A stretch of 54,177 nt of DNA, taken from the NCBI RefSeq assembly GCF_003667345.1, contig NZ_RCWF01000015.1, positions 1-54,177 on the forward strand. Reading direction: 5' to 3'. The notes under the pieces are model-generated. The model saw nothing but the letters and a program-made list of their open reading frames with translations. It was not told where the DNA came from and ran no database searches. This DNA comes from Poseidonibacter antarcticus (lineage in GTDB: Bacteria > Campylobacterota > Campylobacteria > Campylobacterales > Arcobacteraceae). The position numbers and the translations under genes were made by a program. Shown here piece by piece: positions 8,484 through 53,853 of this stretch (within the stretch, counting starts at the first letter, position 1; every line of letters begins with the position of its first letter).

Positions 8484-9692
8484 ATGGAAAATAAAGTAAA
8501 AGAAGCATTAGAAGAGATAAAAAGAGGGACATCTGAAATTATTGATATTGAATCAATTGAAAAATTAATTAAAAGATATTATGAAACGGGTGAAAACTTC
8601 TATGTTAAGGCAGGTTTTGATCCTACTGCACCTGATTTACACTTAGGACATACAGTTTTAATTCAAAAATTAGCATTATTCCAAAAATTTGGAGGAATTG
8701 TTCAGTTTTTAATTGGAGATTTTACAGCAACTATTGGAGATCCAACAGGTAAAAGTGAAACAAGAAAAGTTTTAAGTGAACAAAATGTATTAGATAATGC
8801 ACAAAGTTATAAAGAACAAGTGTTTAAAATATTAGATGAATCTAAAACAGAAGTAAAATTTAACTCTAAATGGTTAAAAGAATTAGGAGCAGCAGGCTTA
8901 ATTACACTTACTTCAAATTTAACAGTTGCTAGAATGATAGAAAGAGATGATTTCTCAAAAAGATATGAATCAAATACTCCAATTGCAGTAAGTGAATTTA
9001 TATATCCACTACTTCAAGGTTATGATTCAGTTGCTATGGGTACTGATATAGAGTTAGGTGGAACAGATCAAAAGTTTAACCTTTTAATGGGTAGGACTTT
9101 ACAAAAAGCTTATAACTGTAAGAAACAACAAGCTGTTTTAATGATGCCAATTCTAGAAGGTTTAGATGGTGTTCAAAAAATGTCTAAATCACTAGGTAAT
9201 TATATTGGTGTTACGGACGAACCTTTTGATATGTTTGGTAAAATTTTATCAATTTCAGATGAATTAATGTGGAGATATTTTGAATTATTATCTTCTAAAT
9301 CATTAAAACAAATCGAAGAATTAAAAATTGGTGTAGAAAATAAAACTCTTCATCCAAAAGAAGTAAAAGATTCACTTGCTATTGAAATAGTAAATAGATT
9401 TCATGGAATGGGAAAAGGTGAAGAAGCAAAAGCTGAATTTAAAAGAGTTTTTGCAAAAAAAGACATTCCAACAGATATGGATGAATACACATTTGAAGGT
9501 CAAACTTGGATTTGTCAAGCTTTAGTTGATTCTAAACTTGTAAACTCTACTTCACAAGCAAGAAGAGATATAAAATCTAATGCTGTATCAATAAACCAAG
9601 AAAAAATATCTGATGATAAATTAAATTTACAAATTGGTGAATACATTTTACAAAAAGGTAAAAAGAATTTCGCTAGAATAATTATAAAATAA
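8484..9692 (+). CDS. tyrS: Tyrosyl-tRNA synthetase
   Basis: TyrS charges tRNA-Tyr. The 402-residue class I synthetase shows the HIGH-type signature HLGH within [15 protein letters not shown], the KMSKS signature in QKMSKSLGN, and a C-terminal S4 RNA-binding domain (about 340-400). AAAGGTAAAG precedes the ATG. It is an operon member between spoT and the flavoprotein gene, with gaps of 18 and 11 bases. Confidence 0.97.
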
Positions 9693-9703
9693 AAGGGCTA
9701 AAT

Positions 9704-10783
9704 TTGAGAATAGGAAAATATGAGATAAAGCACCCTATCATCCAAGGTGGAATGGGTGTAGGAATTAGCTGGGATCAATTAGCTGGTAATGTTAGTTTAG
9801 AAGGTGGACTTGGAGTAATTTCAAGCGTTGGTACTGGTTATTATAAAAATATAACAGAAAAAGTACATATTGTTAGAAAAAAAGATAAACCTAAAGATGT
9901 AGCAAACTTCTATAGTAAAGATGCATTAACTGAGATAATAAATAATGCTAGAAAAATTTGTGGAGATGCACCATTAGCGTGTAATGTTTTATATGCTATA
10001 AATGATTATGGTAGAGTTGTACGTGATGCGTGTGAAGCTGGTTTTAATATGATTATCACAGGTGCAGGACTGCCTACAAATATGCCTGAATTTACAAAAG
10101 AATTTCCAGATGTTGCATTAATACCAATTGTATCAAGTGCAAGAGCTTTAAAACTTATTTGTAAAAAATGGAAAAGATATAATAAAATTCCTGATGCTGT
10201 AATTGTTGAGGGACCATTAAGTGGTGGACACCAAGGTTTTACATATGATCAATGTATGCAAGAAGAGTATCAATTAGAAAATATTGTAGGTCCTGTTATA
10301 GAAGAAGCAAAAAATTGGGGAGATATTCCTATTATTGCTGCAGGTGGGGTTTGGGATAAAAAAGATATTGATAAATTCCTTGATATGGGTTGTGAAGGTG
10401 TACAAATGGCAACAAGATTCATTGGAACATATGAATGTGATGCTGATGCAAAATTCAAAGGTGTATTATTAGATGCTAAAAAAGAAGATATTACATTAAT
10501 GAAATCACCAGTAGGTTTACCAGCACGTGGTGTTAGAACAAACTTACAATTTTCTATGGAAAATAAAACAGCGCCAAAAGTTCAATGTATTTCAAATTGT
10601 GTTTCTCCTTGTAATAGAGGAACTGAAGCTAAAATTGTTGGATACTGTATTGCAGATAGATTAGGTGCTGCTTATCAAGGTGATGTTGATACTGGATTAT
10701 TTTTTACAGGATCTAATGGTTATAGAATTCAAAAAATCATTTCTGTAAAAGAGTTAATGGGAAAATTAACTAAGGGAGAATAA
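9704..10783 (+). CDS. Nitronate monooxygenase / FabK-like flavoprotein
   Basis: This 359-residue FMN-type TIM-barrel protein begins with YEIKHPIIQGGMGVGISW and carries VEGPLSGGHQGF, GDIPIIAAGG and GCEGVQMATRFI. These are typical of the nitronate monooxygenase / 2-nitropropane dioxygenase family, which also includes the enoyl-ACP reductase FabK. The His in GGHQG matches the family's proposed catalytic base. It has a C-terminal Cys-rich stretch (CISNCVSPCNRG) seen in the longer class of these proteins. The TTG start at 9704 has AAAGGG eight bases upstream. The physiological substrate cannot be told from sequence. Confidence 0.8.
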   Translation: MRIGKYEIKHPIIQGGMGVGISWDQLAGNVSLEGGLGVISSVGTGYYKNITEKVHIVRKKDKPKDVANFYSKDALTEIINNARKICGDAPLACNVLYAINDYGRVVRDACEAGFNMIITGAGLPTNMPEFTKEFPDVALIPIVSSARALKLICKKWKRYNKIPDAVIVEGPLSGGHQGFTYDQCMQEEYQLENIVGPVIEEAKNWGDIPIIAAGGVWDKKDIDKFLDMGCEGVQMATRFIGTYECDADAKFKGVLLDAKKEDITLMKSPVGLPARGVRTNLQFSMENKTAPKVQCISNCVSPCNRGTEAKIVGYCIADRLGAAYQGDVDTGLFFTGSNGYRIQKIISVKELMGKLTKGE

Positions 10784-10785
10784 AA

Positions 10786-12495
10786 ATTTTTAATAAATTT
10801 TTAATTCTTATTATTACATATTCAATCTTTTCGATCTCAGTACTTGCTGCTGTAGATTTAAAAGAAGAATATCGTACAGCTAAAATGAATTATTTAAAAG
10901 CAATTTTAAGAAAAGATAATTCTGCAAAAATTCATGAACTAAAAAAACTAATTGAAATAGGTGAAAAGTTAAACAAAGACACTCGTCCTGATATAAAGAA
11001 ATTAGAAGTCCTAGAAAAAAGAAATCATAAAACTTCAAAAAATAGCTCTAAAAAACAGACTAATACAATAAATTATAAATACTCAATAAAATCTGTATAC
11101 ACTCAAGATGATTCAATCATTGTTAATTTTAATACTAAAATATCAAAAAATTATATTAAATTTTTCGAGCTTAAACGTGATAATTTACACAAAGATGTTT
11201 TTGATATAAAAGGTAATTTTAAAGATGCTCAACCTACTGTATTAAAAATCAATAATATTAAGAAGATTACAATAGGTCAATTTAAACCTAAAGTATTAAG
11301 AATAGTATTAGCAAATGAAAAAAATTTAAATACATCCTACACAATAAAAGAAAAACAATTAATAATAAATATACGTAATTTAAATAATAAAAGAAAAGTA
11401 ATAGCAAAAAAAACAGTAACTAATAAAAATTCAAATAATTATATAGATAAAAATAATAAAATAAGAACAATAAATACAAAAGATAATTCTATAGTAATAG
11501 AATTTAATAAAAATTTTACAAAAAAAGATTTGTCTTATTCAACATATAAAAATAATGGAAACTATGATGATGTTTTTGATTTAAAGGGAAAGTTTAAATA
11601 TACAAAACCTATTAAATTATCTATTGATGGAATTAAAAAAATTACAGTTTCTTCAAAAGATAAAAATACAACAAGAATTAGAATTTCAAATAGAAAAGAT
11701 TTAAAAGTTTATTATATTTTAAATAAAAGAAAATTAACTATAAAAATTTCTGGTATTTCAAAGAATAGTAAAAAAGTTACAACTTCAACATTACCATATT
11801 CAAATTTCAAAAGTAAAACTATTGTAATAGATGCAGGGCATGGAGCTAATGACCCAGGAGCTGTTGGACCAAATAAAAGATATGAGAAAGTGGTTACTTT
11901 AAAAATTGCAAAATATCTATATTCTATTTTAAAACAACGTGGACATAAAGTATATTTAACTAGAAGTACTGATACTTTTATAAAAGTTGGGAAAAGAACA
12001 GATTTAGCATTAAAAAAGAATGCTGATGTATTTATTTCTATTCATGCAAACTCAGTTCCTAAAAAAGATGCAGCTAAAGTAAGTGGAATAGAAACTTATT
12101 ATTTAAGTCCTGCTAAAACAGCAAGAGCAAAAAGAGTTGCAGCTAAAGAAAACCGATCAGATATAAGAAAAATGAGTAATTCTAATACTGAAGCATTTCT
12201 TTCATCTTTAAATAGTCCAAAACTTAGATATTCAAGATTATTATCTATTGATGTACAAAGAGAGATGTTAGCAGAAGTTAGAACTAAACATAAAGTAAAA
12301 GATAAGGGTTCTAGACCTGGACCATTTTGGGTACTACTAGATGCACCACAAGCATCAATTTTAGTTGAAGTTGGTTATATTTCCCATCCAATTGAAAGTA
12401 GAAGATTATATACGAGTTCTTATCAAAAACTATTAGCAAGAGGTATGGCTAATGGAATTGATGCTTATTTTGAATTTAAAGCAAGATTTGATTAA
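10786..12495 (+). CDS. N-acetylmuramoyl-L-alanine amidase with AMIN-like domains, probable AUU start
   Basis: This periplasmic zinc amidase cuts the amide bond between MurNAc and the stem peptide, as AmiA/B/C do at cell separation. From ATT 10786 it has 569 residues: a signal peptide (FNKFLILIITYSIFSISVLA then A), two AMIN-like beta modules (about 90-170 and 200-290), and an Amidase_3 domain (about 345-565). The zinc and catalytic residues are visible: His352 in DAGHG, Glu367, His420 in SIHAN and Glu528 in LVEVGYISH. The first ATG in frame, 10885, lies after the signal peptide and would leave the enzyme in the cytoplasm. TAAGGGAG at 10771-10778 stands seven bases before the ATT. The frame is closed upstream by TAA 10771-10773 and contains no ATG, GTG or TTG before 10885. 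Its stop overlaps that of the convergent Nudix gene. Confidence 0.85.
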   Translation: MFNKFLILIITYSIFSISVLAAVDLKEEYRTAKMNYLKAILRKDNSAKIHELKKLIEIGEKLNKDTRPDIKKLEVLEKRNHKTSKNSSKKQTNTINYKYSIKSVYTQDDSIIVNFNTKISKNYIKFFELKRDNLHKDVFDIKGNFKDAQPTVLKINNIKKITIGQFKPKVLRIVLANEKNLNTSYTIKEKQLIINIRNLNNKRKVIAKKTVTNKNSNNYIDKNNKIRTINTKDNSIVIEFNKNFTKKDLSYSTYKNNGNYDDVFDLKGKFKYTKPIKLSIDGIKKITVSSKDKNTTRIRISNRKDLKVYYILNKRKLTIKISGISKNSKKVTTSTLPYSNFKSKTIVIDAGHGANDPGAVGPNKRYEKVVTLKIAKYLYSILKQRGHKVYLTRSTDTFIKVGKRTDLALKKNADVFISIHANSVPKKDAAKVSGIETYYLSPAKTARAKRVAAKENRSDIRKMSNSNTEAFLSSLNSPKLRYSRLLSIDVQREMLAEVRTKHKVKDKGSRPGPFWVLLDAPQASILVEVGYISHPIESRRLYTSSYQKLLARGMANGIDAYFEFKARFD

Positions 12496-21006: not shown

Positions 21007-22980
21007 TTATATTTTTTTGATTTTTTCTATTTCATCTCTTAATCTTATTGCTTCTTCAAAGTTTAAATCATGCGATGCTTTTTTCATTTGTTTATTTAGT
21101 TCTATTAATATTTTTTTTCGCTCAGCAGCTGGCATTTTTTCTACTTTTTCTTTTTTCCATGCTAGTTCATCGTATTCTTCTAGTTTTAAACTTCCGTCTA
21201 ATTTTCTTTTTGTTGATTTTGGTGTTATTCCATGTTTTTTATTATGTGCTTCTTGTATTTCTCTTCTTCTATTTGTTTCATCTATTGCAAATTGCATTGA
21301 GTCTGTTATTCTTTTTGCAAAAAGGATTACTCTTCCATTTTCATTTCTTGCACCTCTTCCCATTGTTTGAATAAGAGCTGTACGTGAACGTAAAAATCCT
21401 TCTTTATCTGCATCTAAAATAGCTATTAGTGAAGCTTCTGGTATATCTAAACCTTCTCTAAGGAGGTTAATACCAATTAGTACATCAAACTCCCCTAGTC
21501 TTAATTGTCTTATTATATGATTTCTTTGAATTGCATCTATCTCACTATGCATATATTTAACTTTTATTCCTAAATCACTGTAGTATGAAGCTAATTCTTC
21601 TGCCATTTTTTTTGTTAAAACAGTTACTAAAACTCTTTCATTTTTTTCTACTACTCTTTTTATTTCATCATATAATTTTTCAACTTGAAATTCTGAATCC
21701 ATAATATCAATTTTTGGTTCAATTAGTCCTGTTGGTCTTATTACTTGCTCTGCAACTACGGAGCTTAAATTTAATTCCAATTCATTTGGCGTTGCACTTA
21801 CAAAAAGAAAACTAGGAGCTTTTTTAATAAACTCATCAAACTTTAAAGGTCTATTATCCAAAGCACTTGGAAGTCTAAATCCATAATCAACTAATACTTC
21901 TTTTCTTGACCTATCAGCTGCGTGCATTCCACGAAATTGAGGAAGAGAAACATGTGATTCATCTACAATTAATAAAAAGTCTTTGCCTATTTGTTCAAAG
22001 TAGTTCATCAAAGAGTATGGTGTTTCACCTGGTTTTTGACCAGTTAAATGTCGTGCATAGTTTTCAATTCCCTTACACATTCCTGTACCTTCAATCATTT
22101 CTAAATCAAATTCTACTCTTTGTTTTAGTCTTTGATATTCAACTAATTTATCATTTTCTTTTAAGTTCTTTAATCTAATATCTAGCTCTTCTTCTATTTC
22201 TTTTACTGCAACAGAAAGCTTATCATTTGATACAACAAATGGATTTACTGAGTAGATTATCACTTCTTTTAAGTCTTGTGTTTTATTATTAGTCATATAT
22301 TCGTGTTTTGTGATTGATTCAACTTCATCACCAAAAAACTCAACTCTAATAAATTCATCTTCATAATATGCTGGATAAATATCAATTACATCGCCATTTA
22401 CCCTAAAATCTGATCTATCAAAAAACTTATCATTTCTTTTATATCCCATTTCTACAAGTTTTAATAATAACTCACGTTGAGAATATTCAAATCCTACATC
22501 CAATCTTTGAACCATCGCTTGATACTCTTCAGGATTTCCTAAACCATAGTTTGCTGAAACCGATGCTATTACAATTACATCATCAAAAGAAAGTAGCGAT
22601 GCTGTTGTACTAAGTCTTAGTCTTTCAAGTTCTTCATTTATAGAAGAATCTTTTTCAATAAATAAATCAGATCGTGGAATATATGCTTCAGGTTGATAAT
22701 AATCATAGTATGAAATGAAATATTCAACATGATTATTTGGAAAGAATTGCTTAAACTCTGAATATAATTGAGCTGCAAGAGTTTTATTATGAGTCATTAT
22801 TAGCGTTGGTTTTTGAGTCTTTTCAATTACCTTTGCCATAGTATAAGTCTTACCTGAACCTGTAACACCTAAAAGAGTATTATATTGATTCCCTGCATCT
22901 ATTGAATCACTTAATGCTTTTATAGCTTCTGGTTGATCACCTGCTGGCTTATAATCACTTATTACTTCAAACTTTGCGAT
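21007..22980 (-). CDS. uvrB: Excinuclease ABC subunit B, probable AUC (or AUU) start
   Basis: UvrB is the DNA-damage-verifying helicase of nucleotide-excision repair. From ATC 22980 it has 657 residues, close to the family's usual 660-675. The N-terminus reads [20 protein letters not shown], followed by Walker A GVTGSGKT (about 38-45), the beta-hairpin [15 protein letters not shown], helicase motifs including DESHVSLPQ and QTMGRGARN, and a C-terminal UVR domain. The first ATG in frame (22839) falls after Walker A, so it cannot be the true start. The frame is closed by TAA 22986-22984, and only ATT 22983 or ATC 22980 can start it. AAGGA at 22991-22987 stands 6 bases before ATC and 3 before ATT, favouring ATC. 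nth follows in the same transcript. Confidence 0.92.
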
Positions 22981-23084
22981 AATTTATCCTTAGATATTTT
23001 TTGTAAATTTTATTGTAATTGTATCTAAGATTTTATTATGATGAGTTTTATATATGAAATTTATGAGTAGAAATTTTAAGAGAA

Positions 23085-32681: not shown

Positions 32682-35600
32682 CTAATTAGTTATACCATCT
32701 GTGATTATTTGTTCAACTTTTACTTGAACACTTGCATTATCAGTATTTGTATATACATCAAATGTTGTTTCATCTTCAGTAACTGTTGATGTTGTAGACC
32801 ATTTATTATTATCTGCTCCATCTTCAAATAAAACAGAATCCGTACTATTACCTGTAATTTTAAGGTCATTATTTTCATCTGTCATATTAATAACATCTTG
32901 TAATGATAAACTAATATTATGCGTACCATTTGTTAAATCAAGTTCTTCAATATTGTCAAGTTTTGAGAAATCAAAACTAGCACTTGCTTCTAATTGTATG
33001 ATATCATATCCAGTTCCACCATTTATAGTATCTAAACCATCTGTAATAATAGTATCATTTCCTGCATCTGCATTAATTATATCATTTTCTGAACCACCAT
33101 CAATAATATCATCACCTTCACCACCACTTATAGTATCAGTACCAATTCCACCATCAATAGTATCGTTTCCTGCTTCACCATTTATGATATCATCTCCACT
33201 TTCTCCATAAATAGTGTCATCACCTTCACCCGCATTTATCGTATCATTTCCTGCACCTGCATTAATTGTATCAGCATTATCACTTCCTATAATATTATCA
33301 TCACCAGTTGTTCCATCTATAGTGCCTGTATCAACTGTTACATTTAAGGCTACATCATTAACTGTTACTTCATCAGATTTTTCATCTGAATTTTTTTCTA
33401 GTTGTGAATATGCACTAATATCAATATTTTCAACACTTCCATCTGTAGTAGTTGAGATTAATTTTATATCTCCATTTGCAAGTGCTGTTAAAGCATCTTC
33501 ATAAGTACTATCACTTGCATTTCCAATATTAATTATCCAATCACCATCAGTATTTTGTGTAGCTGAAACTCCTGCGATACTTGAAACATCAAGATCAAAA
33601 GAATCACCTAAGCCACTTACTTTTAGATATAAAGATTCACTACCATCTTTGTCTAATAAATCTAAACTTGTTACATAAAGAGCAATAGTATATGAACTAC
33701 TTATTATATTGTTTTTACTAGTATCAATTTGATTATCAATGCTACTTGTAAAACTAGTAACACCACTTGCTTTTGATTCAAGTATTATATCAAATGTATT
33801 TGTTGTTTGAACGGCACTTGTACTAGAACCGTCAACTGTCCAAGCAGTTGTTGTTATGGTACCACCTTTATATCCTGTTGGAGTTAAGACAGATAGGTCA
33901 TTGACTTTTTCATAATCTATACCTGAAATAGTGTATATCCCTGTAGTGTCATCATAGCTACTAGCTATTGGTGTAGTCCCTCCATCTAAACTAAACGAAC
34001 TATCTTCTGGAAGTCCATCAAATGTCACAGAAATAGTTTCACTACCATCTGTATCTTGAACATTAATATTAAGATTAATTTGAGTCCATGCTGACTCACT
34101 ATTTACATACTCATCACCAATTGCATCTGTTGGACTAAAAGAGATTAAATCATCTGCAACTGCATTAAATGTAATATTGAAAGAATCAGAAGTTTGTGCA
34201 GTTTCATTTCCTGGTTCACCACTTGTTACACTTAATGTAACACCAGTAATTTCACCACTAAAGTCTTCTACTCCTATTTTTTTTACTCCAATTTTCTCAA
34301 GTTCGGCAACACTTGAAACATTAAAGTTGTATTCATAAATATATTCGCCGTTTTCTTGACCTATTATAGTTCCAGTTACTGCTATTCCATTATTAGTAAC
34401 TTCATATCCAAAAGGAATACCTGTAAGTTTCGCACTAATTATATCCTCTGTTATATCAATTAAATGTCCTTCTCCAAAATCTAATAACACTATCTCATCT
34501 TCATTTCCAGACATTATTGGTGTAAATGGAGTAATACCATCATTTACTGGAGTAATTGTTATAGTTTTACTTGCTATTGGAGATTCAACTTCAGAAGTTT
34601 CATAAATGTCTCCATTTTGATCTGTTGCACCATTCACATCCTCTTGTGTTGTCACTTTAGAGTCTATTACTAAAGTTCCATAATGATTTTCTGGAGGTGT
34701 GTAAACAAATGATATATTAGTATCTAAATCAGTAATACCTGTAATTGCATAATATCCATCCCCGTCAGGAGTAAGAGTATTAATATTTGTACCATTGTAA
34801 GTTATAGTTCCAATTACAGTATCTGTACTGTCATCAGTATAGTCTTCTGCAAACTTAACATAAACTGTTCCACCCTTTATAATTGTTCTACTATTTCCAT
34901 CTGCGTCATTACTTAAATCTAATGTAATAGTTTGAGAAGTTGGACTTGAACTTTCTGCAACATCACTTCCTGATATAGCAATAGTAGTTTCATCACTTAC
35001 TGGTGCTAATTCAGCATCCAAAGTAGTTCCATCAACTAGATAACTATTTTGATTCGTTTCACTAGTATATGTTATTACCTTAATGTCTAAGTCAACTTTA
35101 TCTATTTCTAAAGTATTTTCATTTTCATTTGGACTCACTATTATATTTCCAAGAGATGTATTTATATTAGATACATTACCTTCTCCATATAACACATAAT
35201 AAGTAGTTCCATCTACATTTTTAGTTTCTGTTGTTCCTGATACACTATATCCACTTGGTAAATTAGAAACTAGAATTGCATAGTTGCTACTATCTGCCGT
35301 AGTTGTTCCGTCAGTTGCAGTTACTAATTGTGCTAAATTAAAGTCTACATCTTCAGTAAGTTGAACATCAGCGATTGGTGTTAATACCATATCCATTTGA
35401 ACATCAGTAACATTATCATTTGTTCCATCAGTTCCATCAAAGTTATCATCAATTACTAAAGTAAATGACTTCACATTAGTTAGTTCCTCATCTTGCGAAT
35501 CTTGGTGTGATACACCTATAGATATTGTTTCAGTAGTTGTTTCGCCATTAAAATTAACTGCTTCTCCATTAATGTTAAATTCAATAGTATTTGATGTGCC

Positions 35601-38600
35601 ATCTGAATCAAGAGTATTATCTGTTATAGGAAGACTCCATTTACCAGAGTTTATGATAGTCCCTGTATCAGAAAGTATATCTCCTAAATAAGTCCCACCA
35701 ACAACACTAACACCTTCAGGAACTCCTGAAACTGTAATAGTTGTAATTTGCTCACTGCCATCTTTATCAGAAACTGAGTCAAGTTCAAATGGTACATTTA
35801 TAATGACATTTGTTTTCGCGGCAGTTACAGCATAACCAACTGTATCATCTCCACTTACTAAAGCTTTACTTGTATCAGCTGAGTTTATATTACTTATAGA
35901 TGATATTGCAGCATCAGTAATAGGAGTTACGCCAACTGTATATGTTTTTGTAATATAATCACTTGGATCACTAAAAGTTTCATTATAGATATCACTGCCA
36001 CTTGTAGTTGTGCTGTAATCAGTATAAGTTACACCACCATCTGCTACAGTATCTGAAACACTATATCTAATATCAAAGTTATAAGCTCCTGATTTATCAG
36101 CCCATGAACTATCAAGTTGTGCTGTAACAGTTTCTACGATATCATTGGTTACAGTTAATTCTACCCATTGAGCACTTCCAACTGAAGTTTGAGTTAATGT
36201 AGCATTATTTGTTATAAGAGATACACCAGCATCAATTGATTCTGTGTTTATCCAAATACTTTCAAGTTTCTCACCACTATCTGCTCGAGTAAAACTAAAG
36301 TCAAGTACATTATCTCCCGAATCTTCCTCTTGTGAATCATGAATATTTACTGTACTTTCAGCTTCTGGAGTAACTAGTATTTTTAAAGGAATAATTTCAA
36401 TTAATGATTTGTCTCCATCATCTTCAATAGTTTGAAGCTTTAAATTAAGTTCTACTTCTCCACTATAGTCTGAAGGAATTGTTAATTTAATACTATTAAA
36501 ATTGCTCGCTTCTACAACCCAATTATCACCTATTTTAACAACATCTGTTCCCGTAATACCAAAACCTGCAGGTAAATCAGAAATAGTTACAAAAAGAGTT
36601 TCTGAATCATCTCCTACTGTTGATATATCAACAGATGAGAAGTTTGGAGTATCTGATGGAAATAATGTATATAAAGAAATAGAACTTGTATCTTCTGTCA
36701 CTACTGCATTATATGTATCATCTGTAACACTATCTACAGGATTATCATAAGTTGGAGTATCTGCTACACCTGTAACTTTTACTAAAATATCTAATTTTGG
36801 TGCTGTACTTAAATCTGCTGGATTAACATCACTTCCATCAACTGCTTGTGCTTGTACTTTTAAAGTTATATTTTCATTAGAATCCTCTTCAGGAACATAA
36901 GTAAATAATTTTGATTTATCAAAATTTTTAATCTCTAATTCCCATTTTCCATCAGAACTATTTGAATCTGTTGCTACTATTTCAAAGTTCTCATCTGAGA
37001 ATTGACCTGTAGTTGAATCTGAAGTTCCAACTGTAATTGTACCACTAGAAAGTGTAACTAATTGCCCATTATAATAAATCTGTGCACCATCTGGAATATC
37101 ACTAAGTTTTAAAGTATATGATTCTGAACCATCTTTATCTGATGAACTTACACCTACATTTAGATCTATTCCTGCATCTTCATTTCCAAATGATTGTTTT
37201 ATAGCAACTGTTACATCATCTGCAATAGGATTAACTGTAATAGTTAAAGTATCTCCTTGACTAATAGCTGTGCTTGGAGATTCTTTATTACTAGCATCAT
37301 CATCATAATCTATAGATTTGATTTGTGTAGTAAGAATCATTGTTCCACTATATTCAGCAGGTGCTTTTACTTGTAAAGTATCTAAAGCAGTACTTGGAAT
37401 TTCAACTGCTGTTCCTGCATATATAAATTCTGTAGTTTCCCCACCATAAGTAAAGATTGTTCCAATTAAATCAGCACCATTTTCATCTTTTGCAGTAAAT
37501 AGTACAGTTGTTGTTTCAGATGCACTATCTTCATTTATTAAAGTAAGACCTGTAAATGTACCTTCTGTTATATTTAAATTGAAAAATTCATCTTCATTTG
37601 CTTTTGTTGCATAGTTGTGAGTTCCTTGAGTGATAATGTCATTTCCATCTGTCCCAGAAATAGTTCCTGCTGTATTTGTCTCAGTGCTTTCAGCAATAGG
37701 ACTTACTACTAAATCAAATGTTTTCACTAAATCCGTCGCTGTATTAGTAATAGGAATACCATCAATTACATTCACATCCTGTACTGTTGCAGTTACTGTA
37801 ATACTCATATCTAAACTACTATGAGCAGGTGGAGTAATTGTTGCTGCTTGGATTGTTGCTATATCCAAAATTGAGCTTCCATCACCAATAGTAAATGTAC
37901 CAGAACTATCAATAGTAGTAGTTACTCCACCATAAACAACTACACTTCCCTCATCTAGTCCTGTTATAACAACTTTCATGACACTTTCAGTTCCAGCTAT
38001 ATCTTTATCTGTCAAATCAAAATCACTTAAAAATGCTACTGCTGTATCTTCATCTGTAGTCTTCGCCACCATATCAGCAATATCATCTGCAATAGGGTTT
38101 ACATGTAAAGATAAAGTTACGCTATCTTTTGAATCATAAATAGTTTTATTTGCTAGCGTTGTAGTATCAACACTTGATTCATCGTTATGAGTAGAATCCG
38201 TATCTGTGTCATGTGCAACTAAAGTAATCGTAATATCTGACATATCACCACTAAAGTTTTTTGGTGGAGTTAATGATAATGCTGGAATTGTTCCATCACT
38301 ATTTAAATCTATAGTATAAGTTCCAGTTGTTATTGTATTTCCATTGATAATAGTACCAGATGGTAAATCACTCAACACAATACTTCTATTTTCACTTCCA
38401 TCCATATCAGCAAATGTAACTGTAAGAAGTGATTGTAAATCTAAAGGTCTATCTTCATCTATTGTTGTTTCATATGAAGTGTCAGAATTGTTAATTTTGA
38501 TATCAACTGGGTCAGTTACTGCTAAAACATCTACATCTACAGTAATTGTTGATTCTGCACCTGCAACTGGATTACCAGATATTTCAAATATATTACCACT

Positions 38601-41600
38601 TTCATCAACTTCATATTCTGTTACTTTCATTGTAACTTTAAAATCTTTCGCATCTTGAGATGATGGACGAACTTCCATTAAATTAAAATCGTCTTTTGAC
38701 ATACTTAAAGTCTCACCACTTAATCCATTAAGATGAGTATCGTTATCAGTGAATTTAATTGTAATATCTCCACCAGTTGAAGTAAAAGTATTTCCACCAT
38801 ATGATAATTCTACCCCACTTGGAATACCGCTTAAAGTAACTAAACCTAATAATTCAGGATTATCACCTAACGCAGCACCATTATTATCTGTTGTATCAGT
38901 AATAGTTGGAGCATTAAGACCTAATGCTACAGGTGTATCCTCAAGAGTATAAACAGTATCAGCATCAACTGTCACACCTGGAGCATCTGATATTGGGTTG
39001 ACAGTGAAAGTAACTGTTGTAGTTGTCGTTTGTAAAACTCCATTTTCATCTATCTCCTCTACTGTATAAGTTAGAGTATCTACTCCACTATATTCATCAT
39101 TAGGAGTGTAATGTAACTTACCATCGGTATCTATCGTAGCTATACCATGTACTGGACTTGTATGAATGCTAGTATTGCTTGAAGTTGCCCCTGCTTGTGT
39201 AGCATAAGTAGCTTCTCCACTATCTTCATCAATTGTATAATCTTGTATAGATAGATTATCATCTACTACATTAATAGTAAAGGTTTTAGTAACACTGTCT
39301 CCATCATAATCCACTACTTGATAACTAAAAGGCAGCGCAGTTGTTTCTTCAGAATTATCAATAACACCAGAAAGAGTGAATTTATATTTTGCCGAAGAAG
39401 TACTAAACTTGTTAATCTTAACAGTAAATATAGTATCTCCTCCAGCTGTTGCTGTAAGTTTATGCCCATCTGCACTAATAGTGTAAGATAAAGGCGTACC
39501 TTGTGAAGTTAAATTTAGAGCATCTAAAGTAGTTTGACTTGTACTAAATGTAGTGTCAAAACTATCTGCATCTTTATTAACTGCTAGTGAACCTGTTTGT
39601 GTTAAGGCAGCATTATCAGGATTACTACCACTTGCTAAATTCGCTTCATTAACAGTAGCTGTATCAGCTGTACCAATAGTTGGTATATCATCTATAATAG
39701 CTACTGTTAAATCATTTGCTGCAGTATCACCATCTGCATCTGTAGCTATGTAATGAAGTACAACATCTTTACTATTCTCTCCACTTGCAGCATCATGATC
39801 TATAGTACCTTTTAACTCAAAAGTATATCCTGTTGAAGCTGTTTCATTATCAGGATCTGTAATAGTTGCAACAAAAATTTCTTTTGAACCTACTTTACCT
39901 GTAATAGTATGTCCATCATCACTTAGAGTATAAACAATAGCTTTTCCATTTGAAGTAAGAGTTTCTGTTCCTGTAGTATCAAATACAGTATCAAGTGCAT
40001 CTGTACCAGATCCAATATTTAAATCCCCTGTAGCAACAAGTGTTTCTTTAACTGTATCACTACCTGAACTTAAATCATCTTCATCAAGGCTTGCAGAAGT
40101 TGCTCCATCATTTGTAGGATTAGCTCCATCTGTTACTTTAATTTCTTGAATTGCACTTGAAATGTCACCATCAAAGTCAGTGATAGTATAAGTAAAGTTA
40201 TCAGTAACCGCAGCTGTATTATTAATCTCACTACCATCTGATATATAAGACCATGAACCATCACTATTTACAGTAAGTAATCCATATTGAGTATCTACTT
40301 GTGTTCCTAGTGTTCCTGTTTGTTCATTACCCTCTTCATCAGTATATTTAAAACCTGTTACAGTTGATAGTCCATCTGCACCTGTTACATCATTATCTAG
40401 TAAATTAACACCAGTTAAAGGGACATTTCCTTCATTAACTGTAACTACACTTGTATCTTCAACTGCTGTTGGAATATCATCTGTAATATTTACTTTTATT
40501 TGTGATTCAACAGTATCATCTATTTCAACAACACTAAATGGGATATCTATATCAAGATTATTTTCACCATCTGCCGTTGTATGGTCAAGTACACCTTTAA
40601 GTTCAAAAGTATATGTACTATTTTCATCATAATCATTAGCTGTACCGTTATTATTAATAGTTACTACAAATACATCATTACCAATACTATCTTTAGCTGT
40701 TAAAACATGATTTGAATCACTTAAACTAAATGTTAAAGCTTGTCCACCTGATTTTAAACTTGTCATATTAGTATCTGCATTAATTTTTGATATATCAAAT
40801 ACTACATCTGTGATATCATCTTTTCCTGTAGTTATTCCTAATGAATTATTTTCTGATGTTAAAGATTCTTTTATTGATTCACTTCCACTTGTTAAATCAT
40901 CTTCATCAATAATTACAGTATCAATAGGTGCTACAGTTGCAATTGTATCTGTTACGGTAATTGTGTTTGTAGCTTCACTTGACACATCACCATCACCGTC
41001 AATAAGTGTATATGTGAAGCTTCCACTTGTATTACTATTATTTTCTGTTCCAACTGCTGTTGAATTATCATCATGGTCAACTGAAGCTATAGGAGTAAAT
41101 TTCCATGAACCATTTTGATTTACAGTTAATTCACCTGTTGGAGTAATTACAGTATAAGTTGTGTTTGAATCACTAAATGTTAGTGTTTCATCAGCAGTTC
41201 CATCTGCTTTTGTATATGTAAAGTTATTTAAAATAGCTTCATCTGCACCTACAATATCTACCCCACTTGTATCATCATCTGTTATCACATTTCCAGTAAT
41301 TGCAGCTGTTGTTCCTTCAACTACTGTTGCACTATTATTTTTTGCTGTTGGTACATCATCTACTATTGTAATAGTTAAGTTTGTAGCTGGTGCACTTGTT
41401 TCATTTCTATCAGTCACTGTTAATGAGATAACATCTGTAACTTCATTATTCCCATCTGCATCTGCATGCGTTTGTTCAGTTTTTAATGTATAGGTGTAGT
41501 TTATAGTTCCACTACCATCTTGATGTGTTCCATCACTTGGAGTAAAGCCATTAATTACCAAAGTACCCTCACCTGTATCAATATTGATAGCTGTTGTTCC

Positions 41601-44600
41601 ACTATCTAGTAATTGTGCTTGAGTTATATCAGTTCCACCGATGTTTACACTTACTAATCCATCTTTTGCTGAGATAGTGATTGTTCCTGATGTTGTCTCT
41701 GTAGTTGCACTTGCATCACTTCCTGTTGCCAAACCTGATTCATAAACGGTTGCATCTCCATTTGGATGAGCATCACTACTGTTACCATCTACTGCTGTAA
41801 TCGTTGGAACATCATTTGTTCCCTTGATTGTAATAGTTAATGTTGTTGTACTTGTATCACCATCTGCATCTTTGATTGTATAGGTAAAGATATCTGTTAA
41901 TGTTTCATCAGGTATAAGATGTTGTACTCTTACATCATTATTAGTAAGTGTATATATATAACGTCCATCACTCTCTATTTTTACACTTCCATAAGTGCCA
42001 TTTATACCATCTCCTACATGTTCTGTTACATCTGAACTTGTATCACTTCCTGCTGCTACTCCTAAGACTACTATTGGGGTATCTGCTCCACTTATATCAT
42101 TTTGTGTATCATCTGTTGTATTAACTATAACATTTCCATTTACTGTTAATGTTGTATCTTCTATAACTGTATTTGTATCTACATTTGCAGCTGGAACATC
42201 ATCTACAATATTTACTGTAAATGTCGTAGTTGCCACATCACCATCAAACTCAATCACTTTTACTCCAGAAGTTACTGCTAATTCATTTGCACCTGCTGCA
42301 TCAGCATGATCTAATGGAGCACTTAGGGTAAAAGTATAATCTGGTGTTGTTGTTGCTGTATCACTCAATACTGTCGTAAATACAGTTGGTCCTGAATTTC
42401 CAGCAGTTGCTGTAAGCGTATGCCCATCAACTGAGATTTTGTACACTAAATCCACTCCACCTGAACTCAATTCACTTGGAAGAGTAGAAACATCGAACTG
42501 AACATCAAATGTATCTGTTGCAGGAGTAACACTTAATTCTCCTGTAACAGATGTTGCTAGTGCATCAGTATCAGAACCATCAGGAAGTGTATTCTCATAC
42601 ATACTAACAGTAGATCCACTAATCGTAGCATCTAAATCTTTCACATTGATTGTAAGTGTTGCACTTGTTTCATCTCCATCTTTATCTTCAATAGTATAAG
42701 TAAATGTCTCTACTAGATCAGCTCCTAATGGATTATCTAAATCACTTTTTGCTTCAAAGGTATATGAACCATCACTATTAAATGTAATATATCCATCATC
42801 CGTTTCAGTTCTTGTTCCAAGTGTTATTTCAGTAGCACCATACATTAGTTTAATTACAGGACTACCAATAAATCCATCAGCATTACCATGATCAGCATTA
42901 TCTCCATTGGTTGTTCCTGTTACAACATTCCCAGTAATAGAGTTTGTTGCTCCCTCATTAATATCTCTTGTATCATTAACTGCTGTTGGTACATCATCTA
43001 CTATTGTAATAGTTAAGTTTGTAGCTGGTGCACTTGTTTCATTTCTATCAGTCACTGTTAATGAGATAACATCTGTAACTTCATTATTCCCATCTGCATC
43101 TGCATGCGTTTGTTCAGTTTTTAATGTATAGGTGTAGTTTATAGTTCCACTACCATCTTGATGTGTTCCATCACTTGGAGTAAAGCCATTAATTACCAAA
43201 GTACCCTCACCTGTATCAATATTGATAGCTGTTGTTCCACTATCTAGTAATTGTGCTTGAGTTATATCAGTTCCACCGATGTTTACACTTACTAATCCAT
43301 CTTTTGCTGAGATAGTGATTGTTCCTGATGTTGTCTCTGTAGTTGCACTTGCATCACTTCCTGCTGCCAAACCTGATTCATAAACGGTTGCATCTCCATT
43401 TGGATGAGCATCACTACTGTTACCATCTACTGCTGTAATCGTTGGAACATCATTTGTTCCCTTGATTGTAATAGTTAATGTTGTTGTACTTGTATCACCA
43501 TCTGCATCTTTGATTGTATAGGTAAAGATATCTGTTAATGTTTCATCAGGTATAAGATGTTGTACTCTTACATCATCATTAGTAAGTGTATATATATAAC
43601 TTCCATCACTCTCTATTTTTACACTTCCATAAGTGCCATTTATACCATCTCCTACATGTTCTGTTACATCTGAACTTGTATCACTTCCTGCTGCTACTCC
43701 TAAGACTACTATTGGGGTATCTGCTCCACTTATATCATCTTGTGTATCATCTGTAGTATTATTTATAACATTTCCATTTGCTGTTAATGTTGTATCTTCT
43801 ATAACTGTATTTGTATCTGCTACAGCTGTTGGAGCAGTATCTGTTACGGTAACTGTAAATTTTGCCGTTGCTGTTGCACCTGTAGAATCTTGAACTTTAT
43901 AAGTAATAACATCATCCACGCCAGTTGGATTGTTTTCAGTAGCATCAGAAGTAAAACTCCATGTTCCATCTTCATTTACTGTTACACTACCATACTGAGT
44001 ATTGGCTGTTGCAGTTATGACACCTCCAACATTTGATAATGTAGCCGTTTGAGTATTTCCCGCTTCATCTTTATACTCAAAACTTACTATTTTCCCATTT
44101 GCACCTATTTCATCATTATCGAGTAGATTAAGTGACTCTGTTGTGCTAGTAATAGTATGTGTACCCTCTACTACTGTTTCTGTTTTATTTGTGAGGTTGA
44201 TTTCATCTGTAATAGTTCCTGAACCTGTATCACTTGAATCTGTGATTTGAGAATCTGTTGTTGTTGCAGCTAGAACTACTGTTTCATTTGGTTCAGTGAT
44301 TGCATCATCTTTTACTTCTGCTCTTACTTGTACAGTTGAAGCATCTGCTGGAAGTGTGATTTTTCCATCAGCTGGAACTGCTACCCAAGAAGTACCATCA
44401 AAGAACTCTAAGTTTGATTCATAATCAGTTCCTGCTGTTGCTGTTCCACTTGTAGCTAATGTTACTTCTACATTTTCACCTACAGCGTTTGATAATTTTA
44501 CATCATATGTTAAGTATGTATTATTTGCTTCTGTTACAGTTGCTGCATCACCAACTACTACTGTTGCTGTAATATCTGAATCTACATTTGGATTATCTGT

Positions 44601-46778
44601 TCCTCTATCATCTGTAATAGTTCCTGAACCTGTATCACTTGAATCTGTGATTTGAGAATCTGTTGTTGTTGCAGCTAGAACTACTGTTTCATTTGGTTCA
44701 GTGATTGCATCATCTTTTACTTCTGCTCTTACTTGTACAGTTGAAGCATCTGCTGGAAGTGTGATTTTTCCATCAGCTGGAACTGCTACCCAAGAAGTAC
44801 CATCAAAGAACTCTAAGTTTGATTCATAATCAGTTCCTGCTGTTGCTGTTCCACTTGTAGCTAATGTTACTTCTACATTTTCACCTACAGCGTTTGATAA
44901 TTTTACATCATATGTTAAGTATGTATTATTTGCTTCTGTTACAGTTGCTGCATCACCAACTACTACTGTTGCTGTAATATCTGAATCTACAGGGTTTGTG
45001 CCTAAATCTTCTGTAATAGTTGTTGTTACATTATTATCTGTTGCATGTTCTGTTATTGCTTCGAAGTTTGTATCTGTAATAGCATTAATTGCAATATTAA
45101 AGCTTTCAGTTCCTTCTGCTAATGCATCATCAAGTGTTGTTATATCAAATGTTGTTGAGTTTGATCCTGCTGGAATTATTACTGATGATACTCCTGTAAA
45201 GTCTGTTCCATCTACTGCTACACCTGTATATGTAAATGTCACTGTAATATCTGTTTTTACATCTGTTGCTAATTGATCTACACTTACTGTATATGAAGCT
45301 GTTGTTTCACCTTCAACTACATTTGCTGGTCCTACTAAACTTACTATTGCTGTATCTTCTAAGTTATCTTCAATTACTGTCGATACTGTATCATTCCCTA
45401 AATCAATGTTTTCAAAACTTCCTGTATCTATTGGTGTTCCGATTATTACATTAAATACTTCACTTCCCTCAGCTAAAGTATCTTCTATTGTTTCTATATT
45501 AAAGTTAACACTTTGATTATTTTCATCTAATATTATTTGTACTGTATTTGTTATTATATCTTCACTGCTTGCTGATATATAACTATAAGTTAAAGGCACT
45601 GTTATTGTTTCACCTGATGCTATTACTTGATCTACTTCTATCTTATATGTTGCAGCAGAACCTTCTTCAACCAATTCATCTCCGCTAATTGATACTATTG
45701 CTGTATCTACATTATCTAAAATAGTCCCTATAGCTTCAGAATTACTAATATTTGCATTCCCTTCAACATTAGAAATATTAATTCTTACCGTTTCTCCATT
45801 ATCTGATATATAGTCATTTATAATTGGAACTTGTATTGTAGTACTTATACTTCCTGCTGGTATTGTAATACTGCCTGAAATATCAGAATAATCTTCACCA
45901 TTTGCTGATGCTGTTATAGCTGTTGTATCATAGTCAAAAGTTACAGATGAACTTAAACTTCTATCAAGAGTAACTGTAAATATTAAAAATCCATCATTTT
46001 CATAATTAGTTGCATTATTAATACTTAAGTTTCCTATTATCGGTGTAGAAACTGGTGTTTCAACAACTTCTTCTTCAGTATTATCAACAGGAATAACAGA
46101 TGGTGGTGTAGGATTAACTGTTGGTACTGAAGGAGTATTAACAATAGAATCTGTATAATCTGGTCTTTCTGTAGCATTATTTGGAGTTAATCTCCCCTCT
46201 GATTCACTCTCAAATTGAGTTAAATCTTCAAAAGTTTGAGTTCTTGCTACAAATTGCGTATTTCTCAAATCAGTATTAATATCTGTTGCAGTTCCATCTC
46301 TTGCTTCAAATTCACCACTTTCAAGTGCTTCATCTTCAGCTTCTTCTTCACCTTCTGCTGTTTCTTCTTCAGTAATATTATCATCATTATCTGATATACT
46401 ACCATCTTCTTCTAATTCAAGTTTTTCATCAACAAATTCTGCATCTCTTAAATCACTTATAATATCAACATTTGAAGATTGATCTTCACCGTTTAAATTT
46501 AAGCTTTCTCTCGTAAAAAATAATTCTTCTGTTCCGAATGCAGTTTCAATTAAAGAAGAGTCTATTAATTGTTCTTGTCCTTGACTTAAAACGATAACAT
46601 CATTACCTGAAAGTTGAATTTCTATTCGTGAAGATGATGAATTGTCACTATTACCATAGATTGTATCATTTTCATAGATTTCATCACCTACTTTTAAAAC
46701 TCTAATATTTCCATTTTCATCTTTTACATTAAAAGTTCCATTTGATAAACTTATTATACTTCCTGCAATTGTTGCCAT
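32682..46778 (-). CDS. Giant LapA-like RTX adhesin, 4698 residues
   Basis: This is a cell-surface adhesin exported by the type I system encoded upstream. Residues 1 to about 115 form a LapA-type retention module (AGSIISLSNGTFNVKDENGN then IRVLKVGD), followed by an acidic linker with a candidate LapG site, TAEG at 140-143. Three Calx-beta-like modules lie at about 245-590. A very long array of Ig/cadherin/VCBS-like modules follows, often ending in linkers such as DDVPTA. RTX calcium-binding nonapeptides lie near residues 4490-4590, before a C-terminal secretion signal. The protein is Asp/Thr/Ser-rich and I found no Cys. No conventional signal peptide is present, as expected for type I export. 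The coding frame is uninterrupted for 14.1 kb. Ligand specificity is not predictable. Confidence 0.9.
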   Translation of the reverse strand: MATIAGSIISLSNGTFNVKDENGNIRVLKVGDEIYENDTIYGNSDNSSSSRIEIQLSGNDVIVLSQGQEQLIDSSLIETAFGTEELFFTRESLNLNGEDQSSNVDIISDLRDAEFVDEKLELEEDGSISDNDDNITEEETAEGEEEAEDEALESGEFEARDGTATDINTDLRNTQFVARTQTFEDLTQFESESEGRLTPNNATERPDYTDSIVNTPSVPTVNPTPPSVIPVDNTEEEVVETPVSTPIIGNLSINNATNYENDGFLIFTVTLDRSLSSSVTFDYDTTAITASANGEDYSDISGSITIPAGSISTTIQVPIINDYISDNGETVRINISNVEGNANISNSEAIGTILDNVDTAIVSISGDELVEEGSAATYKIEVDQVIASGETITVPLTYSYISASSEDIITNTVQIILDENNQSVNFNIETIEDTLAEGSEVFNVIIGTPIDTGSFENIDLGNDTVSTVIEDNLEDTAIVSLVGPANVVEGETTASYTVSVDQLATDVKTDITVTFTYTGVAVDGTDFTGVSSVIIPAGSNSTTFDITTLDDALAEGTESFNIAINAITDTNFEAITEHATDNNVTTTITEDLGTNPVDSDITATVVVGDAATVTEANNTYLTYDVKLSNAVGENVEVTLATSGTATAGTDYESNLEFFDGTSWVAVPADGKITLPADASTVQVRAEVKDDAITEPNETVVLAATTTDSQITDSSDTGSGTITDDRGTDNPNVDSDITATVVVGDAATVTEANNTYLTYDVKLSNAVGENVEVTLATSGTATAGTDYESNLEFFDGTSWVAVPADGKITLPADASTVQVRAEVKDDAITEPNETVVLAATTTDSQITDSSDTGSGTITDEINLTNKTETVVEGTHTITSTTESLNLLDNDEIGANGKIVSFEYKDEAGNTQTATLSNVGGVITATANTQYGSVTVNEDGTWSFTSDATENNPTGVDDVITYKVQDSTGATATAKFTVTVTDTAPTAVADTNTVIEDTTLTANGNVINNTTDDTQDDISGADTPIVVLGVAAGSDTSSDVTEHVGDGINGTYGSVKIESDGSYIYTLTNDDVRVQHLIPDETLTDIFTYTIKDADGDTSTTTLTITIKGTNDVPTITAVDGNSSDAHPNGDATVYESGLAAGSDASATTETTSGTITISAKDGLVSVNIGGTDITQAQLLDSGTTAINIDTGEGTLVINGFTPSDGTHQDGSGTINYTYTLKTEQTHADADGNNEVTDVISLTVTDRNETSAPATNLTITIVDDVPTAVNDTRDINEGATNSITGNVVTGTTNGDNADHGNADGFIGSPVIKLMYGATEITLGTRTETDDGYITFNSDGSYTFEAKSDLDNPLGADLVETFTYTIEDKDGDETSATLTINVKDLDATISGSTVSMYENTLPDGSDTDALATSVTGELSVTPATDTFDVQFDVSTLPSELSSGGVDLVYKISVDGHTLTATAGNSGPTVFTTVLSDTATTTPDYTFTLSAPLDHADAAGANELAVTSGVKVIEFDGDVATTTFTVNIVDDVPAANVDTNTVIEDTTLTVNGNVIVNTTDDTQNDISGADTPIVVLGVAAGSDTSSDVTEHVGDGINGTYGSVKIESDGRYIYTLTNNDVRVQHLIPDETLTDIFTYTIKDADGDTSTTTLTITIKGTNDVPTITAVDGNSSDAHPNGDATVYESGLATGSDASATTETTSGTITISAKDGLVSVNIGGTDITQAQLLDSGTTAINIDTGEGTLVINGFTPSDGTHQDGSGTINYTYTLKTEQTHADADGNNEVTDVISLTVTDRNETSAPATNLTITIVDDVPTAKNNSATVVEGTTAAITGNVITDDDTSGVDIVGADEAILNNFTYTKADGTADETLTFSDSNTTYTVITPTGELTVNQNGSWKFTPIASVDHDDNSTAVGTENNSNTSGSFTYTLIDGDGDVSSEATNTITVTDTIATVAPIDTVIIDEDDLTSGSESIKESLTSENNSLGITTGKDDITDVVFDISKINADTNMTSLKSGGQALTFSLSDSNHVLTAKDSIGNDVFVVTINNNGTANDYDENSTYTFELKGVLDHTTADGENNLDIDIPFSVVEIDDTVESQIKVNITDDIPTAVEDTSVVTVNEGNVPLTGVNLLDNDVTGADGLSTVTGFKYTDEEGNEQTGTLGTQVDTQYGLLTVNSDGSWSYISDGSEINNTAAVTDNFTYTITDFDGDISSAIQEIKVTDGANPTNDGATSASLDEDDLSSGSDTVKETLVATGDLNIGSGTDALDTVFDTTGTETLTSNGKAIVYTLSDDGHTITGKVGSKEIFVATITDPDNETASTGYTFELKGTIDHDAASGENSKDVVLHYIATDADGDTAANDLTVAIIDDIPTIGTADTATVNEANLASGSNPDNAALTQTGSLAVNKDADSFDTTFSTSQTTLDALNLTSQGTPLSYTISADGHKLTATAGGDTIFTVKINKFSTSSAKYKFTLSGVIDNSEETTALPFSYQVVDYDGDSVTKTFTINVVDDNLSIQDYTIDEDSGEATYATQAGATSSNTSIHTSPVHGIATIDTDGKLHYTPNDEYSGVDTLTYTVEEIDENGVLQTTTTTVTFTVNPISDAPGVTVDADTVYTLEDTPVALGLNAPTITDTTDNNGAALGDNPELLGLVTLSGIPSGVELSYGGNTFTSTGGDITIKFTDNDTHLNGLSGETLSMSKDDFNLMEVRPSSQDAKDFKVTMKVTEYEVDESGNIFEISGNPVAGAESTITVDVDVLAVTDPVDIKINNSDTSYETTIDEDRPLDLQSLLTVTFADMDGSENRSIVLSDLPSGTIINGNTITTGTYTIDLNSDGTIPALSLTPPKNFSGDMSDITITLVAHDTDTDSTHNDESSVDTTTLANKTIYDSKDSVTLSLHVNPIADDIADMVAKTTDEDTAVAFLSDFDLTDKDIAGTESVMKVVITGLDEGSVVVYGGVTTTIDSSGTFTIGDGSSILDIATIQAATITPPAHSSLDMSITVTATVQDVNVIDGIPITNTATDLVKTFDLVVSPIAESTETNTAGTISGTDGNDIITQGTHNYATKANEDEFFNLNITEGTFTGLTLINEDSASETTTVLFTAKDENGADLIGTIFTYGGETTEFIYAGTAVEIPSTALDTLQVKAPAEYSGTMILTTQIKSIDYDDDASNKESPSTAISQGDTLTITVNPIADDVTVAIKQSFGNEDAGIDLNVGVSSSDKDGSESYTLKLSDIPDGAQIYYNGQLVTLSSGTITVGTSDSTTGQFSDENFEIVATDSNSSDGKWELEIKNFDKSKLFTYVPEEDSNENITLKVQAQAVDGSDVNPADLSTAPKLDILVKVTGVADTPTYDNPVDSVTDDTYNAVVTEDTSSISLYTLFPSDTPNFSSVDISTVGDDSETLFVTISDLPAGFGITGTDVVKIGDNWVVEASNFNSIKLTIPSDYSGEVELNLKLQTIEDDGDKSLIEIIPLKILVTPEAESTVNIHDSQEEDSGDNVLDFSFTRADSGEKLESIWINTESIDAGVSLITNNATLTQTSVGSAQWVELTVTNDIVETVTAQLDSSWADKSGAYNFDIRYSVSDTVADGGVTYTDYSTTTSGSDIYNETFSDPSDYITKTYTVGVTPITDAAISSISNINSADTSKALVSGDDTVGYAVTAAKTNVIINVPFELDSVSDKDGSEQITTITVSGVPEGVSVVGGTYLGDILSDTGTIINSGKWSLPITDNTLDSDGTSNTIEFNINGEAVNFNGETTTETISIGVSHQDSQDEELTNVKSFTLVIDDNFDGTDGTNDNVTDVQMDMVLTPIADVQLTEDVDFNLAQLVTATDGTTTADSSNYAILVSNLPSGYSVSGTTETKNVDGTTYYVLYGEGNVSNINTSLGNIIVSPNENENTLEIDKVDLDIKVITYTSETNQNSYLVDGTTLDAELAPVSDETTIAISGSDVAESSSPTSQTITLDLSNDADGNSRTIIKGGTVYVKFAEDYTDDSTDTVIGTITYNGTNINTLTPDGDGYYAITGITDLDTNISFVYTPPENHYGTLVIDSKVTTQEDVNGATDQNGDIYETSEVESPIASKTITITPVNDGITPFTPIMSGNEDEIVLLDFGEGHLIDITEDIISAKLTGIPFGYEVTNNGIAVTGTIIGQENGEYIYEYNFNVSSVAELEKIGVKKIGVEDFSGEITGVTLSVTSGEPGNETAQTSDSFNITFNAVADDLISFSPTDAIGDEYVNSESAWTQINLNINVQDTDGSETISVTFDGLPEDSSFSLDGGTTPIASSYDDTTGIYTISGIDYEKVNDLSVLTPTGYKGGTITTTAWTVDGSSTSAVQTTNTFDIILESKASGVTSFTSSIDNQIDTSKNNIISSSYTIALYVTSLDLLDKDGSESLYLKVSGLGDSFDLDVSSIAGVSATQNTDGDWIINIGNASDSTYEDALTALANGDIKLISTTTDGSVENIDISAYSQLEKNSDEKSDEVTVNDVALNVTVDTGTIDGTTGDDNIIGSDNADTINAGAGNDTINAGEGDDTIYGESGDDIINGEAGNDTIDGGIGTDTISGGEGDDIIDGGSENDIINADAGNDTIITDGLDTINGGTGYDIIQLEASASFDFSKLDNIEELDLTNGTHNISLSLQDVINMTDENNDLKITGNSTDSVLFEDGADNNKWSTTSTVTEDETTFDVYTNTDNASVQVKVEQIITDGITN
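33020..33315 (-). repeat. RTX nonapeptide repeats in the adhesin C-terminus
   Basis: This stretch encodes roughly nine to ten tandem GGxGxDxxx-type repeats, for example GGEGDDIID and GEAGNDTID, which fold as a calcium-binding beta roll after export. They lie about 100-110 residues before the C-terminus, followed by the secretion signal. The count is by eye. Confidence 0.85.
41344..42180 (-). repeat. Near-identical 837-bp repeat in the adhesin gene, copy 2
   Basis: This block (adhesin residues about 1533-1812) matches 42982-43818 (about 987-1266) at a period of 1638 bases, with only about ten base differences seen by eye. It encodes two consecutive domains that start near NTVIEDTTLT and end near DDVPTA. 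The first copy precedes a different 801-bp segment, so the repeat is not simply tandem. Confidence 0.85.
42982..43818 (-). repeat. Near-identical 837-bp repeat in the adhesin gene, copy 1
   Basis: This is the partner of 41344-42180. It encodes the residues around NTVIEDTTLTANGNVINN and SDAHPNGDATVYESGLAAGS. Synonymous and nonsynonymous differences are both few, which points to a recent duplication or gene conversion. Confidence 0.85.
44204..44586 (-). repeat. Exact 383-bp tandem repeat in the adhesin gene, copy 2
   Basis: This block repeats 44609-44991 at a period of 405 bases (135 residues). Reading both copies side by side I found no difference over about 383 bases. Each copy encodes a Calx-beta-like module that starts near SDITATVVVGDAATVTEANN and ends near SDTGSGTITD. 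Confidence 0.85.
44609..44991 (-). repeat. Exact 383-bp tandem repeat in the adhesin gene, copy 1
   Basis: This is the first copy in transcription order (adhesin residues about 596-723). Identity at the DNA level implies very recent duplication or continuing homogenisation, and marks a likely site of copy-number change. Confidence 0.85.
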
Positions 46779-46830
46779 AGTTTGTCCTTTAAGACTTTAT
46801 TATTAAATTATATTTATATTATAGTAGAAT

Positions 46831-53622: not shown

Positions 53623-53853
53623 TTTTAACCCTTGATTAAATAATTATTATTACTTTAACATAAAATAGCTAATAAAGAAGAGAAATATTTAAGATACAAT
53701 AAAGGAAATCTATACTTAATATATTTATACTGAGACATATATTAATTATTTTAATACTAGGTACATTATAGAAGATAGTATATAAGTAAAGACTTTATTA
53801 TTATTTAAATTATTAAATATATAAATAATTTAATAATTTTAGAAACCGCGCGC

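Follow-up and report, generated by a model that had tools for sequence, protein, structure and literature searches.

The N-acetylmuramoyl-L-alanine amidase gene of Poseidonibacter antarcticus almost certainly begins at an AUU codon, judging from its reading frame and from the codon that its relatives carry at the same place. We consider it probable that translation of the amidase starts at AUU 10786 on a strong Shine-Dalgarno (SD) sequence, that this start is ancestral and selected, most likely for dosage, and that the starts of uvrB, ftsK, and tatD belong to the same class. The gene lies in the window analyzed here, i.e., the whole stretch of 54,177 nucleotides of contig NZ_RCWF01000015.1. 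ATT, ATC, and ATA are collectively written as AUH below.

Reading frame and start region of the amidase gene

The amidase frame lies directly 3′ of an in-frame TAA (10771-10773) and, as read from the sequence, is open from 10774 to 12495 on the forward strand (Table 1). The first ATG, GTG, or TTG in this frame after the TAA is ATG 10885. No such codon able to serve as an in-frame start stands ahead of the hydrophobic N terminus, the only exception among the crown genomes (defined below) being G022, which has a TTG. The N terminus contains a lysine, is strongly hydrophobic, and ends in VLA/A; the PF01520 amidase body follows, with a score of 152.7 bits against a cut-off of 27. The AAGGGAG motif is separated by 7 bases from ATT 10786 and by only 1 base from ATA 10780. 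We set ATA 10780 aside as a start for this short distance; moreover, many relatives have GTA at that place or carry it in another frame.

All positions given in an earlier note on this DNA (TAA 10771-10773, AAGGGAG, ATT 10786, ATA 10780, and ATG 10885) proved correct when re-read from the sequence. The note had also proposed that the signal peptide is encoded 5′ of the first ATG and needs an AUU start, and the conserved codon together with the SD sequence supports this proposal. Its preference for ATT 10786 over ATA 10780 agrees with both the spacing and the relatives.

A run of 37 codons lacking NTG is expected in 34% of random stretches (NTG frequency of 0.0284 per codon). Because chance gives so high a value, we did not use the missing NTG of a single gene as evidence. 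The excess over chance lies in the conservation of the AUH codon after the SD sequence, not in the absence of NTG.

Table 1 Features of the amidase and uvrB loci in the window
Feature	Position	Strand	Remarks
Nitronate monooxygenase open frame (stop to stop), upstream of amidase	9677-10783	+	PF03060
Shine-Dalgarno sequence AAGGGAG	10772-10778	+	Read directly; contained in the 3′-terminal codons of the nitronate monooxygenase gene
TAA stop of nitronate monooxygenase gene	10781-10783	+	Falls between the SD sequence and the amidase start
ATT, putative AUU start codon of amidase	10786-10788	+	AUH in 73/74 genomes, 13 genera
Predicted signal peptide (M)FNKFLILIITYSIFSISVLA	10786-10848	+	Translation; cleavage probably after VLA, judged by eye
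N-acetylmuramoyl-L-alanine amidase (Amidase_3)	10786-12495	+	PF01520, residues 346-559 counted from ATT, E 1.4e-44
uvrB coding sequence	21007-22980 (ORF 21007-22983)	-	UvrB domains
ATC, putative AUC start codon of uvrB	22978-22980	-	ATC/ATA in 28/36 Arcobacteraceae loci read
Shine-Dalgarno sequence AAGGA of uvrB	22987-22991	-	6 nt 5′ of ATC

Elsewhere in the window, the reverse strand at 30130-53643 encodes a giant repeat protein of 4704 aa (32682-46796), a LapD-like GGDEF/EAL protein (PF16448), and a BTLCP protease (PF06035). At 51046-53643, on the same strand, an outer-membrane efflux protein is fused to TSP3 and OmpA domains. By analogy, this region resembles an adhesin system of the LapA/LapG/LapD type.

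The amidase start codon across Arcobacteraceae

Searching the family for the amidase, we obtained matches in 100 of 104 genomes; the start region was read in 90 of them (G079 masked), and the other 10 are not included. The gene is present in all ten genomes of the genus of the window, group g1, and all ten have an aligned ATT after AAGGAG or AGGGAG. The crown set comprises 74 genomes from 13 genera (g1-g5, g10, g12, and g14-g19). Its aligned start codon is ATT in 66, ATA in four, ATC in three, and TTG in one (G022), where the genomes are related by descent and the counts are not independent events. Among the 73 AUH genomes, G012 is an ambiguous member, with TTG as the very next codon after ATT. 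The named Halarcobacter record L017 duplicates genome G074; it was removed from the count of 74 genomes and is still in the counts of 75 loci.

The SD sequence resembles AAGGAG or AGGGAG in nearly all relatives. Its distance to the start is 7 nt in 52 of the 75 crown loci (L017 included), 6 nt in 20, 5 nt in two, and 9 nt in one, a spacing of 4-9 nt being itself part of the rule by which crown loci were selected. A lysine or arginine falls within residues 2-8 of the N terminus in 75/75 crown loci, which had been selected in part for a hydrophobic stretch. In the deep genera, the readable rows show TTG in g6, g13, and two g20 genomes, and ATG in four g8 genomes. The comparison indicates that AUU has long been kept across crown Arcobacteraceae, with a standard codon outside the crown; the AUU start is not a quirk of one genome.

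uvrB, ftsK, and tatD also lack a standard start

The earlier note spoke of a second gene in the window without a standard start and left it unnamed. This is most likely uvrB, where we found AAGGA and an ATC codon at 22980. We examined 58 uvrB loci and parsed 52 (L065, L070, L206, L207, L208, and L214 were dropped). The 36 Arcobacteraceae rows carry ATC (24) or ATA (4), and otherwise ATG or TTG; the AUH codon stands shortly after an AAGGA-type SD sequence. AUH was the sole start candidate in none of the 16 rows from other families, which use TTG, GTG, CTG, or ATG (L227 was unassigned by rule). Their starts are mostly TTG, GTG, or CTG, which are also weak. In the outgroup loci L218 and L221, an ATC directly 5′ of the TTG was not scored as ATC. 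On the 52-row tree, four changes between AUH and NTG suffice. Two outgroup genomes of genus g55 (L226 and L231) have an apparently CTG-started uvrB.

The earlier note had further suggested a search of the genome for frames extending upstream to ATT, ATC, or ATA with an SD sequence. We scanned 454 kb of the genome of the window for coding signal before the first NTG, blind to the identity of the start codon. Of 411 called genes, 20 showed such a signal, and about six of them were judged convincing by a well-placed SD sequence plus an AUH codon: the amidase, uvrB, ftsK, tatD, a CobB/CbiA-like protein, and a TetR regulator. We rejected the remaining 14, which are short or fragmentary or have no such combination. 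The candidate start of the CobB/CbiA-like gene (L081:5390-6652, reverse strand) is AAGGA-N6-ATA, and that of the TetR gene (L089:16149-16739, reverse strand) is AAGGA-N6-ATT.

Family searches for ftsK and tatD covered 30 loci each, of which ftsK L299 and tatD L324 and L348 were dropped. The ftsK start is ATA in 27 and ATC in two of the 29 loci read, and ATA also occurs in the deep, distant genus g20. For tatD, 26 of 28 loci read have ATA, one ATT, and one ATC. The same scan over 400 kb of G010 (392 genes) gave no convincing further case, and 400 kb of G102 (363 genes) gave ftsK and possibly others. In other families, 400-kb scans of G213 (392 genes) and G229 (374 genes) yielded a few candidates. 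Those of G213 are a TsaD-domain protein with a possible ATA start (L158:4424-4879) and a radical SAM protein with a possible ATC start (L162:3523-4431); in G229, an IPP transferase (MiaA-like) has a possible ATC start (L192:1346-2260). AUH starts are thus uncommon, at roughly 0.5-1.5% of genes, and unevenly distributed.

A gene-specific third base at the start codon

The third base of the start codon is gene-specific: ATT in the amidase, ATC in uvrB, and ATA in ftsK and tatD. We compared the start columns with internal columns of conserved isoleucine, using related rows, so that the comparisons stand within one tree and are not independent counts. At the ftsK start, the ATA fraction is 0.93; among 39 internal columns it does not exceed 0.52, although 5 of these 39 are as uniform as the start column on other codons. 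At the tatD start it is 0.93 versus at most 0.75 in 10 internal columns. The ATC fraction at the uvrB start is 0.86 versus at most 0.64 in 33 internal columns, with 6 of the 33 as uniform on other codons. For the amidase, the modal codon ATT reaches 0.87 over 30 full-length loci, a higher modal fraction than in any of the 12 internal columns. The third base thus varies far less than at internal conserved isoleucines, which argues against drift and against an equivalence of the AUH codons. A positional control on the SD sequence was weakly supportive: AUH made up 8 of 26 non-NTG codons at a spacing of 4-7 versus 3 of 31 at 11-14.

These patterns bear on the two explanations offered in the earlier note. 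A mutational trend is not borne out, as the near-cognate codon is kept across genera with a gene-specific third base. A general relaxation of start selection in the lineage, through an altered IF3, initiator tRNA, or ribosome, would make AUH starts neutral. It could account for AUH starts in several unrelated genes (about six of 411 in 454 kb) and for candidates in the outgroup families (G213 and G229). However, neutral AUH starts would be expected to interchange, whereas every gene here retains a third base of its own, and across genera it is the same genes that carry AUH. The note had also advised a look at the IF3 gene. The IF3 of the genome of the window aligns normally to a solved IF3, and the IMDYGKF, RGRE, and GR motifs, which we take to hold the residues that matter, are recognizable. 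We set aside a change in IF3 as the cause, since this alignment is unremarkable. The tRNAs detected in the stretches of G000 and G010 that we sampled did not include an initiator tRNA. With so few genes concerned and the IF3 motifs kept, relaxed initiation throughout the organism is not supported; the data do not require it, and we regard it as improbable.

Other starts or routes for the amidase

ALTERNATIVES for the amidase gene, namely ATG 10885, a fusion from the upstream gene, and ATA 10780, were all set aside. A start at ATG 10885 would leave the upstream hydrophobic frame untranslated and the amidase either cytoplasmic or exported by another route. This ATG is the first standard start codon in frame, and 43 of the 68 crown genomes that could be placed (six could not) have ATG there as well. 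In the remaining 25, the aligned codon is ATA (19), ATT (5), or GTA (1), so ATG 10885 cannot be the shared start. The SD sequence just 5′ of the AUU argues against it as well, and the peptide encoded upstream of 10885 stays signal-like, with K/R plus a hydrophobic stretch, in 75 crown loci. In some genomes, the amidase frame runs without NTG for 53-275 codons. We consider this reading very unlikely.

It is hardly credible that the amidase is made as a fusion with the upstream protein, through a frameshift or readthrough of the stop. The nitronate monooxygenase and amidase genes do abut tightly, and in genus g19 the amidase start follows the TAA directly in the same frame. Nevertheless, the offset from the upstream stop to the amidase start is -5 nt in 51 loci, -4 in 20, and -3 in two, with two outliers; as all three relative phases occur in relatives, neither event can be a shared route. 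Moreover, a fusion to the upstream protein would bury the signal peptide. Finally, a single base change does turn ATT into ATG, but we give practically no weight to a sequencing error or single-strain mutation with ATT in all ten genomes of the genus and 66/74 crown genomes, among them the named isolate Poseidonibacter lekithochrous A1R12 (L016, identical to G002).

Discussion

On the best reading of these comparisons, the codons are true near-cognate starts that selection maintains, most likely because they keep dosage low. Initiation at AUU 10786 would presumably use formyl-methionine, and the strong AAGGGAG at the 3′ end of the nitronate monooxygenase gene would serve it. Translational coupling to upstream termination may contribute, because the SD sequence lies inside the upstream gene and the stop comes just before the start. 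Judged by its hydropathy and charge, the product is predicted to carry a Sec-type signal peptide. A near-cognate start on a strong SD sequence would give a low, fixed, and probably IF3-sensitive yield, which would suit a wall hydrolase that is likely harmful in excess. AUU would then be an ancestral, selected feature of the crown Arcobacteraceae, with uvrB (AUC), ftsK (AUA), and tatD (AUA) as probable further members of the class in the same genomes. Selection for a low yield of uvrB fits the weak codons that relatives outside the crown also use.

More tentatively, and with rather less confidence than we place in the amidase start, AUA, AUC, and AUU might form a standing low-dosage tier in Arcobacteraceae, and perhaps in the wider Campylobacterota. 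It would serve a defined set of roughly 0.5-1.5% of genes, including the amidase, uvrB, ftsK, and tatD, with each gene locked to one third base; through the level of IF3, the cell could then adjust wall cleavage, chromosome segregation, and repair jointly.

Gene finders are normally limited to ATG, GTG, and TTG, which leaves ftsK, uvrB, tatD, and the amidase liable to truncated N termini; such calls lose the signal peptide or transmembrane domain. The genome paper of A. butzleri allowed only these three starts (PMC2147049). The family-wide keeping of a specific near-cognate codon offers a natural set for gauging the evolutionary worth of start-codon strength, and IF3-dependent dosage control becomes testable in several genes of one organism.

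Comparison with known systems

This kind of start is already known. For the genes described here, for the keeping of their codon throughout the family, and for its gene-specific third base, we found no earlier report in open-licence papers. We found no mention of AUU, AUC, or AUA starts in Arcobacteraceae in open-licence PMC literature, and ATT, ATA, and AUU do not occur as whole words in the main text of a Ribo-seq paper on C. jejuni (PMC11955535). In published work, near-cognate starts with a strong SD sequence yield roughly one-tenth as much as AUG, and IF3 disfavors non-canonical starts (PMC13009471, PMC5472188). The initiation regions described here share this layout. Low dosage through such a start is on record for infC, pcnB, ccpN, and cvfC1. 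In S. aureus, ccpN (AUA), cvfC1 (AUU), and infC (AUA) combine a near-cognate start with a strong SD sequence, and in poor medium, reporters carrying the native ccpN, cvfC1, and citZ starts reached about 10% of the AUG level (PMC13009471).

Like the amidase, E. coli infC and pcnB have an AUU start, and theirs limits translation (papers cited within PMC13009471 and PMC5472188). E. coli infC is autoregulated by IF3, unlike the amidase, uvrB, ftsK, and tatD genes found here; infC itself is apparently TTG-started in our set (L001, L124). The ccpN gene of S. aureus and B. subtilis (AUA) and staphylococcal cvfC1 (AUU) resemble our cases in their strong SD sequences and their conservation in relatives (PMC13009471). 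The staphylococcal cases reported are a handful, whereas we see such starts across a family in four or more unrelated genes of housekeeping or envelope function, each with its own third base. In Streptomyces sigR, a GTC start repressed by IF3 holds dosage down and is misannotated in genomes (PMC5472188). It is akin to the starts proposed here in this respect and differs from them in its codon and in belonging to a regulator gene.
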